Source: SAR86 cluster bacterium
GTDB taxonomy: Bacteria > Pseudomonadota > Gammaproteobacteria > Magnimaribacterales > Magnimaribacteraceae
Length of the DNA stretch: 37,965 nt
Direction of reading: 5' to 3'
Assembly: GCA_029268615.1 (NCBI GenBank)
Contig: JAQWNM010000004.1
Coordinates: 1 to 37,965 of the forward strand
The number at the start of each line of letters is the position of its first letter. The first letter of the stretch is position 1. Shown piece after piece: positions 31,363 to 37,965 of this stretch. The translations under genes were made by a program, and so were the position numbers. The notes beneath the pieces were generated by a model. It did not search any database. It saw nothing but the letters and a program-made list of their open reading frames with translations, and was not told where the DNA came from.

Positions 31363-32457
31363 TTAGATTAAATCCATTATTCTATCAGCTATAGCGAGCG
31401 AAGAAGTAAGACCAGGGCTTTCTATGCCGAAGAGATTGATCAACCCTTTTATGTTATGTTTTTCCTTTCCCTGTATAACAAAATCCGCTCCTTGCTCTTT
31501 AGGGCCATAGATTTTTGGTCTTATACCAGTGTAATCAGGTTGTAACTTAGAGCCATCAATATGAGGCCAATATAACTTTATTGATTGTAAAAATTTATCA
31601 TGAAGTGTTTCATCAAATGAGTAGTCTATTTTATCTACCCAGGTAACATCTGGACCAAATTTAGCTCTTCCATCTAGGCCAATAGATAGATGGATACCTA
31701 AACCATGAGCATTAGGTAAAGGATAAATTAGATGGTTAAAATTATGTTTACCAGTCAGTTGGTAGTAATGGCCTTTAGCAAAATACATTTCTGGAACAAA
31801 AGATTTCTTTAATCCTGAAATTTTTTTAGCTACTTTTGTAGCATTAAGACCGGCGCAATTAATGATATTCTTGGATTTAACTGTAAATTTTTCGTCAGCT
31901 TGAACAAATATCTGATGTTCATTAGGCGAGGTATTAATATTCGTTACTTCTGAATTTAAAGAGATCATGCCTTGAGTTTTTAAAAAATCATTCTCCAATG
32001 AGAACATTAGTTCAGCTGCATCAATCATGCCAGTTGTACCAGAAAATAAAGCTCCTTCAGATAAAACATCTGGTTCTTGCTCTACTAAATCTTCTTTTGA
32101 CAATAAAATTAAGTCTTTTACACCGTTGAAATCTCCTTGCTCTTTTAGAGTTTTCAGCTTTTTATTATCTTCTTTTTTATTGGCAACAATAAATTTCCCA
32201 ATTTTTTTATGAGTTACATTCTTTTGCTTAGCATAGTCATATAATAAATTTTTACCTGATATACATAATTCTGCTTTTAATGAATTTTTAGGATAATAAA
32301 TCCCTGCATGGATTACCCCAGAGTTTCTGCTAGAGGTTGCTTCTCCTAATCTAGCCTCTTTTTCTAACAGAACAACCTCTTGTCCATTATCAGAAAGTTT
32401 TGCTGCAATAGCTAAACCAACAACACCTCCACCTATTACTATAGTTTCAACTTTCAT
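31363..32457 (-). CDS. L-2-hydroxyglutarate oxidase-like FAD enzyme
   Basis: A 364-residue DAO-superfamily flavoenzyme. The FAD-binding GGGVVG is at 9-14 with E ending the second strand (LLEKE). The segment ATSSRNSGVIHAGIYYPKNSLKA is the family hallmark shared with L-2-hydroxyglutarate dehydrogenase/LhgO. GLGIHLSIGLDGRAKFGPDVTW and the C-terminal GIESPGLTSSLAIADRI agree. Such enzymes oxidise L-2-hydroxyglutarate to 2-oxoglutarate and feed electrons to quinone. The gene has no csiD or gabDT neighbour here, so a lysine-glutarate pathway cannot be assumed; repairing the side product L-2-hydroxyglutarate is a reasonable role. It lies between the Arg and His tRNA genes, reading away from tRNA-His. 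Confidence 0.88.
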   Translation of the reverse strand: MKVETIVIGGGVVGLAIAAKLSDNGQEVVLLEKEARLGEATSSRNSGVIHAGIYYPKNSLKAELCISGKNLLYDYAKQKNVTHKKIGKFIVANKKEDNKKLKTLKEQGDFNGVKDLILLSKEDLVEQEPDVLSEGALFSGTTGMIDAAELMFSLENDFLKTQGMISLNSEVTNINTSPNEHQIFVQADEKFTVKSKNIINCAGLNATKVAKKISGLKKSFVPEMYFAKGHYYQLTGKHNFNHLIYPLPNAHGLGIHLSIGLDGRAKFGPDVTWVDKIDYSFDETLHDKFLQSIKLYWPHIDGSKLQPDYTGIRPKIYGPKEQGADFVIQGKEKHNIKGLINLFGIESPGLTSSLAIADRIMDLI

Positions 32458-32541
32458 TAATAATTTTTAAAAGAATCATAATTTGTATGTAAAATACGGT
32501 TTTAGTTTACATTCTTTATGTAATGTTAGAATAATTTTTTT

Positions 32542-32618
32542 GGTGGACGTAGCTCAGTTGGTAGAGCTCTGGCTTGTGATGCCAGTCGTCGTGGGTTCGA
32601 GCCCCATCGTCCACCCCA
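32542..32618 (+). tRNA. tRNA-His (anticodon GTG)
   Basis: It carries the extra 5' G (G-1, 32542) facing discriminator C (32615), the histidine identity pair. The acceptor GTGGACG (32543-32549) pairs with CGTCCAC (32608-32614), and the encoded CCA is 32616-32618. The anticodon stem CTGGC/GCCAG holds loop TTGTGAT with GTG at 32576-32578. Its final A is also the first base of the AGGA ribosome-binding site of tig. Confidence 0.97.
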
Positions 32619-32622
32619 GGAC
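32618..32622 (+). promoter_or_regulatory. tig ribosome-binding site overlapping the tRNA-His 3' end
   Basis: AGGAC (32618-32622) is 6 bases from the tig ATG at 32629. Its first A is the terminal A of the tRNA-His CCA. Cutting the tRNA from a shared transcript would leave a tig mRNA starting with GGAC and only 10 leader bases. Confidence 0.55.
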
Positions 32623-32628
32623 AAATAT

Positions 32629-33930
32629 ATGAAATCACCTTTTAGTAAAAAAACAAAATTAGATGAAACAATCCTCATCACTGTTCCTGCTAAGGAAATA
32701 GAAGAAAAAGTAAATAAGCAATTAATAGATACTCAAAAAAAATCTAAGATAAAGGGATTCAGACAAGGTAAGGCTCCTTTAGATTTAGTAAAAAAACTTT
32801 ATGGAAATGAAATAAGGAGCGATGTGATAAATGATTCAGTATCACACTCTTTTTATCATATTGTAGAAGATAAAGGTTTAAGGCCAGTTGGACCCCCCAC
32901 CCTGAAACCTAAAAACTTGACAGAAGGTAAAGATGTTAAATTTGAAGCTACCTTTGACATATATCCTGAAATAAAACTTGGTAAGTTAAATAAAGTTAAT
33001 TTTATTAAACCTAAAAGTGAATTAACAGAGAAAGATCTTAAGGATGCAATTCTAAATTTAAGAAAGAGAATGAGTAAATGGAATCTAAAAGAAGGAAAGT
33101 CTAATATAGGCGATCAAGTAAAAATTAATTTCAAAGGGTACATAGAAGAGAAAGAATTTGAAGGAAATACAGCTAATGATTTTGTTTTAGAGCTTGGCTC
33201 TAATTCTATGATTCCTGGTTTTGAAGAAGGGCTCGTTGGGAAAGAGAAGGGCGAAGAATTAACACTAGATTTAAGCTTCCCTAAAGATTATCACAACTCA
33301 GAATTTGCTTCTAAGCAATCAAAATTTGAAATAGAAATTCTTGAAGTGCTGAAATCTGAATATCCTGAGATGGATAATGATTTCTTTAAAAGTGTTGGAA
33401 TTGAAGCTGAGGACGAAGAAAATTTCTCAAAAGAGATCGAAAAGAGATTGAAAGATGACCTTGAAAGAGTAATTAAGAATAAATCTAAAACAAGACTTTT
33501 TGATGCTTTATTAGAAGTAACCCCATTTGATATTCCTCCCACAATGGTTTCTAATGAAATAAATAGTATGAAGGAAGATTCTGCTAAAAGAATGGGGGTT
33601 GACCCTAAAAAAATAAAACCAGAAGATTTTCCTGATGACGCTTTTCTTGAAGACGCAACCAAGCGAGTTAAATTAGGTGTATTGCTCAATACCGTTATTT
33701 CAGATAATGAGATTAAACCTGATGCTGAAAATGTCAAAAAATTGATTGAAGAAAGATCTTCGCAGTATCCTAATCCTCAAGAGGTAATAAATTGGTTTTA
33801 TTCAAACGATGAGCAACTTAAGCAAATTGAATTTTTAAGTTTAGAAGAACAAGTTTATGAATACATTTTATCAAAAGCTAATTTTACTGAAGAAAATTTA
33901 ACTTACGAAGAATGTCTTAAAAATAATTAA
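32629..33930 (+). CDS. tig: Trigger factor, ribosome-associated chaperone and peptidyl-prolyl isomerase
   Basis: A 433-residue chaperone that binds at the ribosome exit tunnel and shields nascent chains. The ribosome-binding signature GFRQGKAP is at 43-50. The FKBP-type isomerase domain follows at about 150-240 (GDQVKINFKGYI through GSNSMIPGFEEGLVG). The long helical C-terminal arms run to the end, with IPPTMV near 303. Length and domain order match the E. coli protein. It begins 10 bases after tRNA-His, so the two are probably on one transcript. It is followed by clpP, separated by an 87-base region holding a heat-shock-type promoter. Confidence 0.97.
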   Translation: MKSPFSKKTKLDETILITVPAKEIEEKVNKQLIDTQKKSKIKGFRQGKAPLDLVKKLYGNEIRSDVINDSVSHSFYHIVEDKGLRPVGPPTLKPKNLTEGKDVKFEATFDIYPEIKLGKLNKVNFIKPKSELTEKDLKDAILNLRKRMSKWNLKEGKSNIGDQVKINFKGYIEEKEFEGNTANDFVLELGSNSMIPGFEEGLVGKEKGEELTLDLSFPKDYHNSEFASKQSKFEIEILEVLKSEYPEMDNDFFKSVGIEAEDEENFSKEIEKRLKDDLERVIKNKSKTRLFDALLEVTPFDIPPTMVSNEINSMKEDSAKRMGVDPKKIKPEDFPDDAFLEDATKRVKLGVLLNTVISDNEIKPDAENVKKLIEERSSQYPNPQEVINWFYSNDEQLKQIEFLSLEEQVYEYILSKANFTEENLTYEECLKNN

Positions 33931-33933
33931 TTA

Positions 33934-33960
33934 CTTGAAATTTAATCATTTGTGACCCAT
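33934..33960 (+). promoter_or_regulatory. Sigma-32 (RpoH)-type heat-shock promoter for clpP-clpX-lon
   Basis: CTTGAAA (33934-33940), a 15-base spacer, then CCCAT (33956-33960) followed by AAAT. This matches the enterobacterial sigma-32 consensus of CTTGAAA and CCCATnT closely in sequence and spacing. It starts 3 bases after the tig stop and lies about 57 bases before the preferred clpP start. The same stretch can be read as a weaker sigma-70 promoter (TTGAAA, 17 bases, CATAAA). Confidence 0.65.
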
Positions 33961-34005
33961 AAATAGTAAGTAAGTATTTTTAACTTAATAAAACTTTATA
34001 TGAAT

Positions 34006-34010
34006 AAGGA
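34006..34010 (+). promoter_or_regulatory. Ribosome-binding site deciding the clpP start
   Basis: AAGGA is 7 bases before the ATG at 34018. The other in-frame ATG at 34000 lies upstream of this site and has no Shine-Dalgarno of its own. Confidence 0.65.
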
Positions 34011-34017
34011 TAAAATA

Positions 34018-34608
34018 ATGAATCAATTAGTACCAATGGTTGTAGAACAGACTTCTAGAGGTGAGCGTGCTTTCGATATTTTTTCTCGTCTTTTGAAAGA
34101 AAGGGTCATTTTTCTTACCGGACCTGTAGAGGATATTGGAGCAAATCTTATTGTTGCGCAATTACTTTTTTTGGAAGCAGAAAATCCTGATAAAGATATA
34201 AACCTTTACATAAACTCGCCTGGAGGTTCAGTAACAGCAGGACTTTCTATTTATGACACTATGCAATTTATTAAACCCGATGTTAGCACTCTATGCGTTG
34301 GTCAGGCAGCAAGCATGGGAGCTGTTCTTCTTACTGGAGGGGCTAAAGGAAAGAGGCATGCCTTACCAAATGCAAGAGTTTTAATACATCAAGTCATGGG
34401 TGGCTTTTCAGGCCAGGCAAGTGATTTTGAAATTCACGCAAAAGAAATACTCAGCATTAAAGCTAAATTAAATTCTATTCTTTCTCAGCATACAGGTCAA
34501 AAAATAGATAAAGTTGCAAAAGATTCAGACAGGGATAATTTTATGAGCCCCGATGAGGCTGTTAAGTATGGTTTAATTGACAGTGTAATAAACCAAAGGA
34601 AAGGTTAA
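34018..34608 (+). CDS. clpP: ATP-dependent Clp protease proteolytic subunit
   Basis: The serine peptidase of the ClpXP complex, forming a double heptameric ring in the cytosol. From the preferred ATG at 34018 it has 196 residues; the alternative at 34000 adds six (MNKDKI) but lacks a ribosome-binding site. The catalytic triad is S99 (GQAASMGAV), H124 (VLIHQVMGG) and D173 (DSDRDNFM), with the oxyanion strand [10 protein letters not shown]. The [14 protein letters not shown] start corresponds to the mature E. coli N-terminus, so there is little or no propeptide. The stop is 5 bases before clpX, forming an operon with clpX and lon under a sigma-32-like promoter. Confidence 0.96.
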
Positions 34609-34613
34609 GGACT

Positions 34614-35909
34614 ATGGCAGATAATATAAAAGACGGTTCAGATAATGAGAAACTTCTATTTTGTTCATTTTGTGGAAAGAATCAAAACGAGGTAAAAAAA
34701 CTTATAGCAGGACCCTCAGTTTATATATGTAATGAGTGCATAGATTTATGTAATGACATTATAAAAGAAGAAATAGAACAGCTAGATGAGGCTCAGAGTA
34801 CATCTTTATCTATACCTTCAGACATAAAAAATACTTTAGATGAGTATGTCATTGAACAGGAATCAGCAAAGAAAAATCTGTCAGTAGCTGTATACAACCA
34901 CTATAAAAGATTGGATTCAGAATCAAAATCTAAATCTAAATCACAAAAAAATTCTGAAGAAGAAGTAGAATTATCGAAAAGCAACATACTCCTTCTTGGC
35001 CCTACCGGCTGTGGAAAAACTTTACTCGCTCAAACTTTAGCAAGAGTGTTGGATGTTCCTTTTGCAATTGCAGACGCAACTTCGTTAACAGAGGCTGGTT
35101 ATGTAGGAGAGGATGTAGAAAATATTATTCAGAAATTACTATTAAACTGTGACTATGATGTTGAAAAAGCACAGCGAGGGATAGTCTATATTGACGAGAT
35201 AGATAAGATAGCCAGGAAATCTGATAATCCGTCTATTACAAGAGATGTCTCAGGTGAGGGGGTTCAACAGGCTTTACTTAAGTTGATAGAAGGTACAGTT
35301 GCCGCTATTCCTCCTCAAGGAGGGCGGAAGCATCCACAACAAGAATTTCTCCAAGTAGATACAACAAATATACTTTTTATATGTGGCGGTGCCTTTTCTG
35401 GGTTAAGTGAAATCATTAGAGGAAGAAGAGAAGAGACCGGCATAGGTTTTGGTGCAAAAGTTTCTTCAATTTCAAAAAATATAAATAGTACTGACCAACT
35501 GAAAAATGTAGAACCAGAAGATCTTGTAAAGTATGGACTAATACCAGAATTTGTTGGCAGACTTCCTGTCATGTCTTCTTTAGATGAGTTAGGTCAAGGT
35601 GCTTTAATTAAAATTCTTGTTGATCCTAAAAACTCTTTAACTAAACAATTCAAAAAACTCTTTGATATGGAAGGGGTGGAATTGGATATTAGAAAAGATG
35701 CGTTATTAGAAATAGCAAATAAAGCTTTGAAACTGAAAACCGGAGCGAGAGGCCTAAGATCAATTTTAGAAAGATTACTAATGGAAACAATGTATAGAAT
35801 TCCATCTGAAACTGGTTTAAAGAAAGTTGTTCTAGATGCTTCTGTTGTAAAAGGGGAGTCAGAACCCTTACTTGTTTTTGAAAAATCATCTGAAGGAAAG
35901 CAGGCTTAA
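34614..35909 (+). CDS. clpX: ATP-dependent Clp protease ATP-binding subunit ClpX
   Basis: A 431-residue AAA+ unfoldase that feeds substrates to ClpP. The N-terminal zinc-binding domain has C17, C20, C39 and C42. Walker A GPTGCGKT is at 129-136 and Walker B VYIDEID at 191-197, and the pore and substrate loops GYVGED and [11 protein letters not shown] are intact. GIGFGAKV (about 284) is the IGF-type loop that docks on ClpP, as in IGF of E. coli. A lysine- and serine-rich linker at about 102-120 is low-complexity. Upstream AAGGA-like sequences lie in the end of clpP. It is followed by lon after 35 bases. Confidence 0.97.
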
Positions 35910-35944: not shown

Positions 35945-37965
35945 ATGACTACAAAAAAAATTCTTACTTGCCCTATGTTACCTCTAAGAGATGTTGTGAT
36001 TTTTCCTACTGTCATCACTCCTTTATTTGTAGGTAGAGAGAAGTCTATGAAGGCTTTAGAAAAATCAATGGGCTCAGATCAGCAAGTAATGCTAGTCGCG
36101 CAAAGAGATCCTCAGGTTGACGATCCTAATTCTAAGTCTATTTATAAAATTGGAACCCTCTCTTCTATATTACAACTTATCAAACTACCTGACGGAACAG
36201 TTAAAGTGTTAGTTGAAGGCAAGCAAAGAGCAAAAGTTTTAAAGGTTTTTGATGAGGAAGAATTTTATTCTTCTCAAGTTGAACTTATTCCTGAGAATCA
36301 AAACATTGAGTCTGAGAAAACCTTAATAAATGATCTAAAAAGTCAGTTCCAAGAATATGTTAGAGTATCGAAGAAAGCTACTCCCGAAGTTTTAAATACT
36401 ATAGTTGCTATCGATAGCATAGGTAGATTGATAGACACTTTGGTTGGCCACACTTCATTAGCTGTTGAAAAGAAACAAGAAATCTTAGAATCAGAAAGTT
36501 TTGAATTAAGCGCTCGAATTATTAGCGGTTATCTTAAATCTCAAATTGATGTGAACAGTGTTGAGAGAAAGATACGGGGTAGAGTTAAGAATCAAATGGA
36601 AAAGAGTCAAAAGGAATACTACCTAAATGAACAGATGAAGGCTCTAAAGAAAGAATTAGGAGAGCTAGATGATTTAGAAGAATCGGATTTATTAGAACAA
36701 AAAATATTAGAAGCTGGCATGTCAGAAGAAGGAGAAGAAAAGGCATTATCTGAGCTCAAAAAATATAAGATGATGTCTCCTATGTCAGCTGAAGCGGCAG
36801 TAGTAAGAGGTTATCTAGATTGGATTATTAATATTCCATGGAAGAAAAAAAGTTCTCTACAAAAAAATCTAAAAAAAGCGAGTTCTATTTTGGATAAAGA
36901 TCATCATGGCTTGGAGGAAGTAAAAGAAAGGATATTAGAAAACCTAGCTGTTCAAAAAAGAGTAAAGAAGCTCCAAGGGCCTATCCTATGTTTAGTAGGA
37001 CCTCCGGGAGTGGGGAAAACCTCATTAGGTGAGTCAATGGCTAGAGCTACTAATAGAGAATTTATTCGTATGTCATTAGGGGGTGTAAGGGACGAAGCAG
37101 AAATAAGAGGCCATAGAAGAACTTATATCGGTTCCATGCCAGGAAGAATAATGCAAAAATTATCTAAAACTGGTGTCAAGAATCCCCTTTTTTTATTAGA
37201 TGAGATAGATAAGATGGGTATGGATTTTAGAGGGGATCCTGCTTCAGCTTTACTTGAAGTTCTTGATCCAGAACAAAATAACTCATTCAACGATCATTAT
37301 TTAGAAATAGACTATGATTTATCTGATGTTCTTTTTGTCTGCACAGCTAATAGTATGAATATTCCAACAGCTCTTTTAGATAGAATGGAAATTATAAGGC
37401 TGCCAGGATATACAGAGGATGAAAAAGTAAGTATTGCTGAGAGTTATCTTGTGCCTAAGCAAATTAAGTTAAATGGACTTACCTCCAAAGAAATAGAAAT
37501 TTCTAATCAAAGTACTCAAGATCTTATTAGATATTATACAAGAGAGGCAGGAGTGAGATCTTTGGAAAGGGAGATAGCAAAGATTTGTAGAAAAGTAGTA
37601 AAAGAGAATGCGGATAAAAAAACACCCAAGAAATATAAAATAGATGCAAATTTATTAGAAGATTTTTGTGGAGTAAGAAAATTTGAATTTGGAGAAGCTT
37701 CCAAGAGAGATAGAATTGGTCAAGTAACTGGCTTAGCATGGACTCAAGTTGGCGGTGAACTATTAACCTTGGAAGCAGCCTGTTTTGTAGGTAAAGGAAA
37801 AATAATTAAAACAGGGTCTCTCGGAGATGTAATGCAAGAATCAATTCAAGCCGCTTTATCCGTGGTAAGGTCTAGATCAGATTCATTGGGAATAGAACCC
37901 AATTTTTATGAAAATCAAGATATACATATTCACGTTCCGGAAGGTGCTACTCCCAAGGATGGCCC
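35945..37965 (+). CDS. lon: ATP-dependent Lon protease, 3' end outside the window
   Basis: An AAA+ serine protease degrading misfolded and regulatory proteins. The frame opens with ATG at 35945 (MTTKKILTCPMLPLRDVVIFP) and stays open to the last base, giving about 673 residues of an expected 780 or so. The LON substrate domain covers about 1-200, and a coiled region includes EYYLNEQMKALKKELGE. Walker A GPPGVGKT is at 352-359 and Walker B FLLDEIDKMG follows. The protease domain starts with RIGQVTGLAWTQVGGELLTLEA. The window stops inside PEGATPKDGP, just before the expected catalytic Ser (S679 in E. coli); the Lys partner is also outside. No ribosome-binding site is evident, and it likely shares the clpP promoter. 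Confidence 0.96.
   Translation, partial: MTTKKILTCPMLPLRDVVIFPTVITPLFVGREKSMKALEKSMGSDQQVMLVAQRDPQVDDPNSKSIYKIGTLSSILQLIKLPDGTVKVLVEGKQRAKVLKVFDEEEFYSSQVELIPENQNIESEKTLINDLKSQFQEYVRVSKKATPEVLNTIVAIDSIGRLIDTLVGHTSLAVEKKQEILESESFELSARIISGYLKSQIDVNSVERKIRGRVKNQMEKSQKEYYLNEQMKALKKELGELDDLEESDLLEQKILEAGMSEEGEEKALSELKKYKMMSPMSAEAAVVRGYLDWIINIPWKKKSSLQKNLKKASSILDKDHHGLEEVKERILENLAVQKRVKKLQGPILCLVGPPGVGKTSLGESMARATNREFIRMSLGGVRDEAEIRGHRRTYIGSMPGRIMQKLSKTGVKNPLFLLDEIDKMGMDFRGDPASALLEVLDPEQNNSFNDHYLEIDYDLSDVLFVCTANSMNIPTALLDRMEIIRLPGYTEDEKVSIAESYLVPKQIKLNGLTSKEIEISNQSTQDLIRYYTREAGVRSLEREIAKICRKVVKENADKKTPKKYKIDANLLEDFCGVRKFEFGEASKRDRIGQVTGLAWTQVGGELLTLEAACFVGKGKIIKTGSLGDVMQESIQAALSVVRSRSDSLGIEPNFYENQDIHIHVPEGATPKDG

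Follow-up and report, generated by a model that had tools for sequence, protein, structure and literature searches.

The only tRNA-His gene found in the genome of a SAR86 cluster bacterium ends 10 nt before the start codon of tig, the gene for the chaperone trigger factor, and the Shine-Dalgarno (SD)-like sequence of tig lies directly at the CCA end of the tRNA. We consider it likely that the two genes form one transcription unit read from the tRNA promoter, that the ribosome-binding site of tig is located inside the 3' trailer of the tRNA, and that the arrangement arose by compaction of an older tRNA cluster.

Anatomy of the tRNA-His/tig junction

The stretch of DNA that was analysed (the window) comprises 37,965 nt of contig JAQWNM010000004.1 in assembly GCA_029268615.1 and has a GC content of 34.7%. 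A prior inspection of the letters and open reading frames of this DNA (the sequence-only reading) had placed tig 10 bases behind tRNA-His and had noted that the A of the CCA end is also the first base of an AGGA site; reading the sequence directly and calling the genes confirmed this arrangement at 32618-32629. ARAGORN placed tRNA-His(GTG) at 32543-32618 on the plus strand, which also carries the other features of the window described below unless stated otherwise, and Rfam matched the tRNA model (RF00005, 64.6 bits) at 32543-32615. G-1, paired with C73 in the predicted fold, extends the gene to 32542-32618. The anticodon is GUG, and the acceptor stem GTGGACG/CGTCCAC, C73 and the encoded CCA end (32616-32618) were all read directly. 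The spacer behind it, GGACAAATAT (10 nt, 32619-32628), is both the 3' trailer of the tRNA and the leader of tig. The SD-like AGGA of tig (32618-32621) takes its A from A76 of tRNA-His and ends 7 nt before the ATG at 32629. No second tRNA-His gene occurs among the 37 tRNAs that were found in this genome, which is 96% complete.

The assignment of tig (32629-33930, 433 aa) to the trigger factor family is based on a TIGR00115 score of 385.6 bits, above the curated cut-off of 180.2, and on the presence of the N domain (PF05697, Trigger_N, from residue 1), the FKBP domain (PF00254, FKBP_C) and the C domain (PF05698, Trigger_C). It is followed in the same direction by clpP (34000-34608; TIGR00493, 331.8 bits, cut-off 308.6) and by two open reading frames that were named by eye, one clpX-like (34614-35909) and one lon-like (35945-37963, extending past the window end). 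Directly upstream of the tRNA-His promoter region, on the minus strand, lies a gene for a FAD-dependent oxidoreductase (31363-32457; PF01266, 176 bits).

Transcription of tRNA-His and tig

Because this upstream gene is on the opposite strand, a promoter would most naturally lie within 32458-32541. Motif matching found there an extended -10-like TGt-TAGAAT (32524-32532), which ends 10 nt ahead of tRNA-His as started by ARAGORN, and a -35-like hexamer TTTACA (32506-32511). The motif recurs in relatives: TGn with a -10 of at least 4 matches in 6 stands 8-16 nt upstream of tRNA-His in 27 of the 28 family loci (shuffles: mean 0.93, maximum 5), and a perfect TATAAT precedes tRNA-His at that distance in all 20 loci of the sister family f2 (shuffles: mean 0.61, maximum 4), where the shuffles were of single bases and the trials are not independent since the loci are related. 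A generic promoter scan of 31500-34500 returned 8 promoter-like sites, fewer than the 11.5 in shuffled sequence, and no terminator-like site was found by scanning the same interval. Between tRNA-His and tig an intrinsic terminator is ruled out because the 10-nt spacer is too short to hold one.

The two genes thus share a strand with no terminator between them and have a promoter motif ahead of the tRNA, features by which a tRNA-mRNA dicistronic operon is recognized, the last of them as motif evidence. Co-transcription of tRNA-His and tig is likely, and the joint transcript presumed by the sequence-only reading gains support from the promoter motif, the lack of room for a terminator and the single tRNA-His gene. 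The tRNA promoter would then drive tRNA-His and tig, and probably also clpP and the clpX-like and lon-like genes, and every primary transcript would carry both products. All tRNA-His of the cell would derive from RNA that enters tig, unless transcription stops within tig or a tRNA-His copy was missed. A promoter farther upstream, reading across the opposite-strand gene, is possible.

It could also be that tig is read from a promoter of its own, within the tRNA gene or elsewhere, and that its closeness to the tRNA is irrelevant to the transcript. Such an internal promoter has a counterpart in E. coli, where PMC6511841 describes P2 at the 3' side of metY. In addition, five of the 22 loci taken from family f3 of the order to which this SAR86 bacterium belongs, all of genus g13 (L064-L068), have 61-69 nt between tRNA-His and tig, including a promoter-like element of the TGTGATAAAGT type, so that tig may have its own promoter in that genus. 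Against this, no plus-strand promoter-like site was found by the scan between 32536 and 33348, and a start inside the tRNA would hang on sequence that is fixed by tRNA function. The separate tig promoter that the sequence-only reading had named as counter-evidence to its proposal was thus found missing from that interval and keeps a candidate in g13; for the genome studied here we hold it to be highly improbable.

Conservation of the spacer and the Shine-Dalgarno sequence

The family search found tig in 28 of 35 genomes, and in all 28 loci the nearest tRNA upstream is tRNA-His, at 10-21 nt from the ATG (median 12). Across the order tig was matched in 147 of 199 genomes, from which 70 loci were selected by rank and genus spread: the 28 family loci, this genome included, 22 of f3 and 20 of f2. 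In every one of the 70, no tRNA lies closer ahead of tig than tRNA-His, and the distance is 10-32 nt in 65 of them, with 12-32 nt in the 20 f2 loci and 12-19 nt in 17 f3 loci. The pairing is therefore kept in relatives as is expected of an operon, the sister family f4 excepted, and the spacing foreseen by the sequence-only reading is conserved in being short, while its exact length varies. Some spacers hold further in-frame starts (ATG at 1 nt in L084, GTG at 0 in L105, TTG at 8 in L097). In the f3 locus L084 the script took the ATG 1 nt after CCA, and we used the second ATG at 13 nt; for the g13 locus L065 the script value is 61 and a second ATG stands at 67.

An SD-like triplet 4-9 nt before the tig ATG is present in 26 of the 28 family spacers and is absent at the right distance in the other two; 500 shuffles of single bases gave 6.0 on average and 13 at most (the loci are related and the test is not independent). 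The SD of f2 is weaker, with a match of at least 4 bases in 13 of 20 loci. Among gene starts in the window, as crudely chosen, an SD-like triplet precedes 8 of 28, a four-base match 4 of 28, and either of the two, with four-base matches at 3-10 nt added, 9 of 28. This suggests much SD-independent initiation among the genes of the window, to the extent that the crude starts are right. Since 26 of 28 family spacers have an SD and only 8 of 28 window starts do, the tig SD looks as if it were kept by selection.

The exact one-base overlap of CCA and SD occurs in two of the 28 family loci (this genome and L054), in none of the 20 f2 loci and in none of the 17 short-spacer loci of f3. With two occurrences in the family and none in the 37 loci of f2 and f3, the overlap was rejected as a conserved feature. 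The conserved feature is a short distance between tRNA and tig together with an SD shortly after CCA; the SD of this genome would have borrowed the A of its CCA.

Origin of the arrangement

The class was sampled through the best-scoring 30 loci of 187 genomes, of which 29 were usable (L116, whose match could not be assigned a start, was dropped). In this sample the arrangement is a different one: tRNA-Leu(UAG) is the tRNA nearest to tig in 24 of 29 loci, at a distance of 45-339 nt, and the remaining loci have tRNA-Pro (one), tRNA-Lys (one) or no tRNA in the stretch (three). tRNA-His lies farther upstream of tig in 18 of the 29, often within a Pro-Arg-His-(Lys)-Leu cluster, and the order loci examined lack the tRNAs that stand there between His and tig. 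In f4 it is tig that appears to be missing. No match to tig was found among the listed f4 genomes (G037, G040, G043 and others), which are up to 97% complete, and the tig family model reached only 6.3e-6 in G037. ClpP was found in five of the eight f4 genomes searched, with tRNA-His 72-130 nt before the ClpP match in four of the five and about 1 kb before it in the fifth. Farther afield, a query with the junction in 5,426 E. coli genomes matched in its tRNA part only, with no place that covered 80% of it, and a scan of the collection for close relatives returned three distant tig genes only.

Because of the cluster in the class sample and the arrangement in f4, the neighborhood looks old, the tight junction appears to be derived by tRNA loss and compaction, and the pairing of tRNA-His with tig can apparently be given up. 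The ancestor would have had the tRNA cluster Pro-Arg-His-(Lys)-Leu ahead of tig, and compaction would have proceeded stepwise, with loss of the tRNAs between His and tig and shrinkage of the spacer to about the minimum that an SD needs, 10 nt.

Predicted folding and processing of a joint RNA

In the minimum-energy fold of the joint RNA tRNA-His forms and CCAGGACAAAUAUAUG is open. In the ensemble fold the bases between A76 and the end of the AUG, both included, have a mean unpaired probability of 0.68 in the joint RNA and of 0.89 after a cut behind A76. The uncut RNA may partly hide the SD, because the four AGGA bases are only 0.29-0.52 unpaired in the joint RNA of the ensemble fold.

With regard to processing enzymes, the genome encodes a protein of the RNase E/G family (795-aa frame, 486 bits), no match to RNase T was found in it, and the RNase_Z family gave hits below the curated cut-off only. 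The best of these, a 353-aa frame with what by eye is an N-terminal membrane-helix-like stretch, was rejected as tRNase Z. For bacteria that encode CCA, PMC7479834 describes trimming of the trailer by RNase E and exonucleases and, in some cases, direct formation of the CCA end by RNase E. If the RNA is cut at A76 or directly behind it, tig would retain a leader of about 10 nt with GGA as its SD, and in most relatives the recognised SD would stay whole; with a cut farther into the trailer tig would lose its SD. We expect tig to be translated by way of the SD, most likely before the tRNA is removed or after such a cut at or just behind A76, and the conservation of the SD speaks for tig being read mostly while the spacer is still in place. 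A single RNA molecule may or may not yield both tRNA-His and the tig product. Processing and translation of a joint RNA must interact, and a consequence for tig output is plausible; nothing seen here establishes regulation or makes the junction a regulatory switch.

The sequence-only reading had gone further and proposed that maturation of the tRNA cuts the ribosome-binding site and so links tRNA processing to tig expression. As a switch, this would mean that excision of tRNA-His removes or weakens the ribosome-binding site of tig and that the rate of tRNA maturation sets the amount of trigger factor. The base common to SD and CCA in this genome fits such a scheme, and an endonuclease cut in the trailer is plausible given the RNase E/G protein, the missing RNase T match and the sub-cut-off RNase_Z hits. 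By analogy, release of the metY tRNA by RNase III reportedly initiates decay of the downstream mRNA, as the title of a 1989 paper has it. The fold would also allow a coupling, in the opposite direction, since it predicts a more open SD after the cut. Comparison with relatives speaks against the switch: here a cut behind A76 takes away one base of the SD, and it takes none in 63 of the 64 other short-spacer loci, which have no base of a recognised SD in CCA and whose SD a clean cut spares (in 6 of these 64 the script recognised no SD, L084 with its ATG taken at 1 nt after CCA included). The cutting of the site is thus not supported in the form proposed by the sequence-only reading. Nor would a regulatory link persist in f4, where tig goes undetected and tRNA-His is still in the neighborhood in the loci seen, before clpP in four of five. 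We regard a processing switch as unlikely.

Other tight junctions between tRNA and protein genes

The idea that the arrangement is unique to tig was rejected: 13 of the 37 tRNAs have a same-strand open reading frame within 50 nt, counted with crude start choice and a minimum of 80-100 aa and with L027, L030 and L032 too near a contig end to judge, and two further tight junctions are conserved. The first of these joins tRNA-Arg(CCU) to a carboxylase gene, a carboxyl transferase by its PF01039 match (310 bits). All 35 genomes gave a match in the carboxylase search. The analysis used the 28 tRNA-linked copies (L177-L204, with that of this genome among them) and excluded L205, a partial copy, and L206, a paralogue; the other genomes gave paralogues only. 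The carboxylase ATG follows the tRNA at 5-9 nt in 27 of the 28 loci and at 13 nt in one, an SD-like triplet is present in one of 28, and the protein has a conserved M[NS]WK start. In this genome (L008/L177, G000:C9) tRNA-Arg(CCU) lies at 96237-96310, 6 nt before the ATG, and there is no SD. In L183 a short out-of-frame ATG stands at 0 nt and the true one at 5. An extended -10 precedes tRNA-Arg(CCU) in 20 of 28 loci and a perfect TATAAT in 6 of 28. In seven loci (L185, L187, L189, L190, L191, L193 and L195) the gene reads CTA at the CCA position, so the CCA would have to be added post-transcriptionally in those relatives; ARAGORN ends these seven tRNAs two bases earlier, and the gaps are as given by ARAGORN.

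The second junction joins tRNA-Leu(CAA), the tRNA that reads UUG, to queA (PF02547, 394 bits; L143/L149, G000:C18:21689-22805 in this genome). For queA, matches were obtained in 27 of 35 genomes and 26 loci were analysed, with the halves of a split gene (L175, L176) omitted. A TTG start follows the tRNA at 11-20 nt in 25 of the 26 and at 55 nt in one, with 11 nt in this genome; it was chosen for its fit to the conserved N-terminus, which holds in 26 of 26, position 1 of the Pfam profile falling on residue 3. Alternative starts are an in-frame ATG at 1 nt in L163 and an in-frame ATG overlapping A76 in this genome, where TGGAG directly follows the CCA of tRNA-Leu(CAA), with GGAG one base behind CCA. 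Other tRNA-to-gene pairs of the same genome (L009, L015, L019, L025), in which the open reading frames were named by eye, are tRNA-Thr with an EF-Tu-like frame at 48 nt, tRNA-Trp with a SecE-like frame at 22 or 1 nt, tRNA-Gln with a Prs-like frame at 28 nt, and tRNA-Met with a RimP-like frame at 43 nt and a terminator-like hairpin between the two. The recurrence at other tRNA genes looks like genome compaction and not like a proven switch.

These junctions bear on another explanation, in which the mRNA receives its 5' end through removal of the tRNA and what is left is read as a message with a very short leader or nearly none, as in animal mitochondria. The carboxylase junction speaks for this explanation, since its 5-9-nt gap, its near-complete lack of SD-like triplets and its conserved start leave a normal site little room behind the folded tRNA, and the small share of SD-led starts in the window agrees with it. 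At tig the gap is 10 nt and contains an SD, which would be needless for a leaderless message and is nonetheless kept in the family. The near-leaderless mRNA that the sequence-only reading had offered for tig therefore fits tRNA-Arg(CCU) and its carboxylase better, and from its sequence that junction is the stronger candidate for near-leaderless translation. For tig we see punctuation by the tRNA as a doubtful possibility. It is quite questionable that a free-living bacterial lineage uses it as a normal route of making mRNA; if it does, strong tRNA promoters would drive the downstream genes, excision of the tRNA would leave messages with very short 5' leaders, and each molecule would yield a single tRNA and a single message at such a junction. 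What remains would determine the output: an SD with ATG in the case of trigger factor, an ATG lacking an SD in that of the carboxylase, and a conserved TTG in that of queA.

Comparison with known systems

No description of the tRNA-His/tig junction was found in the open-licence literature, judged by titles and the beginnings of abstracts. Searches of the same literature on tRNA-mRNA operons and transcripts returned, at title level, plant work only, and those on SAR86 with tRNA, streamlining or intergenic regions returned nothing on the junction. The tRNA cluster upstream of tig in the class has the same neighborhood and the same tRNA order in many sampled loci; there the tRNA next to tig is mostly tRNA-Leu(UAG), and not tRNA-His.

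In E. coli the thrU-tyrU-glyT-thrT-tufB operon has tRNA genes co-transcribed with a translation gene, across a spacer of about 100 nt in which CCA and SD do not overlap; the tRNA-Thr ahead of an EF-Tu-like frame in this genome resembles it. In animal mitochondria tRNAs abut the coding regions, their removal defines the mRNA ends and the messages have no SD, whereas tig retains one. The nearest precedent is the metY-rimP-nusA-infB operon of E. coli, in which, according to PMC6511841, tRNA-fMet2 is the first gene, promoters lie before the tRNA, and RNase III excises the tRNA from the joint transcript. Both cases have a tRNA at the head of a protein operon. In the metY operon a minor, non-essential tRNA is surrounded by terminators, an internal promoter and a site for RNase III, whereas the tRNA-His/tig spacer of 10 nt holds the SD, leaves no room for a processing hairpin or a terminator, and follows the sole tRNA-His gene found.

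The junction would thus be a tRNA-mRNA operon in a new form, for which compaction is the first explanation and a processing switch possible but unsupported. tRNA-headed operons are already known; here the trailer would be reduced to a bare ribosome-binding site, the short junction recurs across three families of an order with small genomes, and a chaperone gene would have each RNA molecule in common with the one tRNA-His gene found. Along with those at the carboxylase gene and at queA, the junction offers natural test cases for how near a start codon can stand to a folded tRNA, and for whether excision of a tRNA, which defines the ends of mitochondrial messages, can yield functional messages in bacteria as well.
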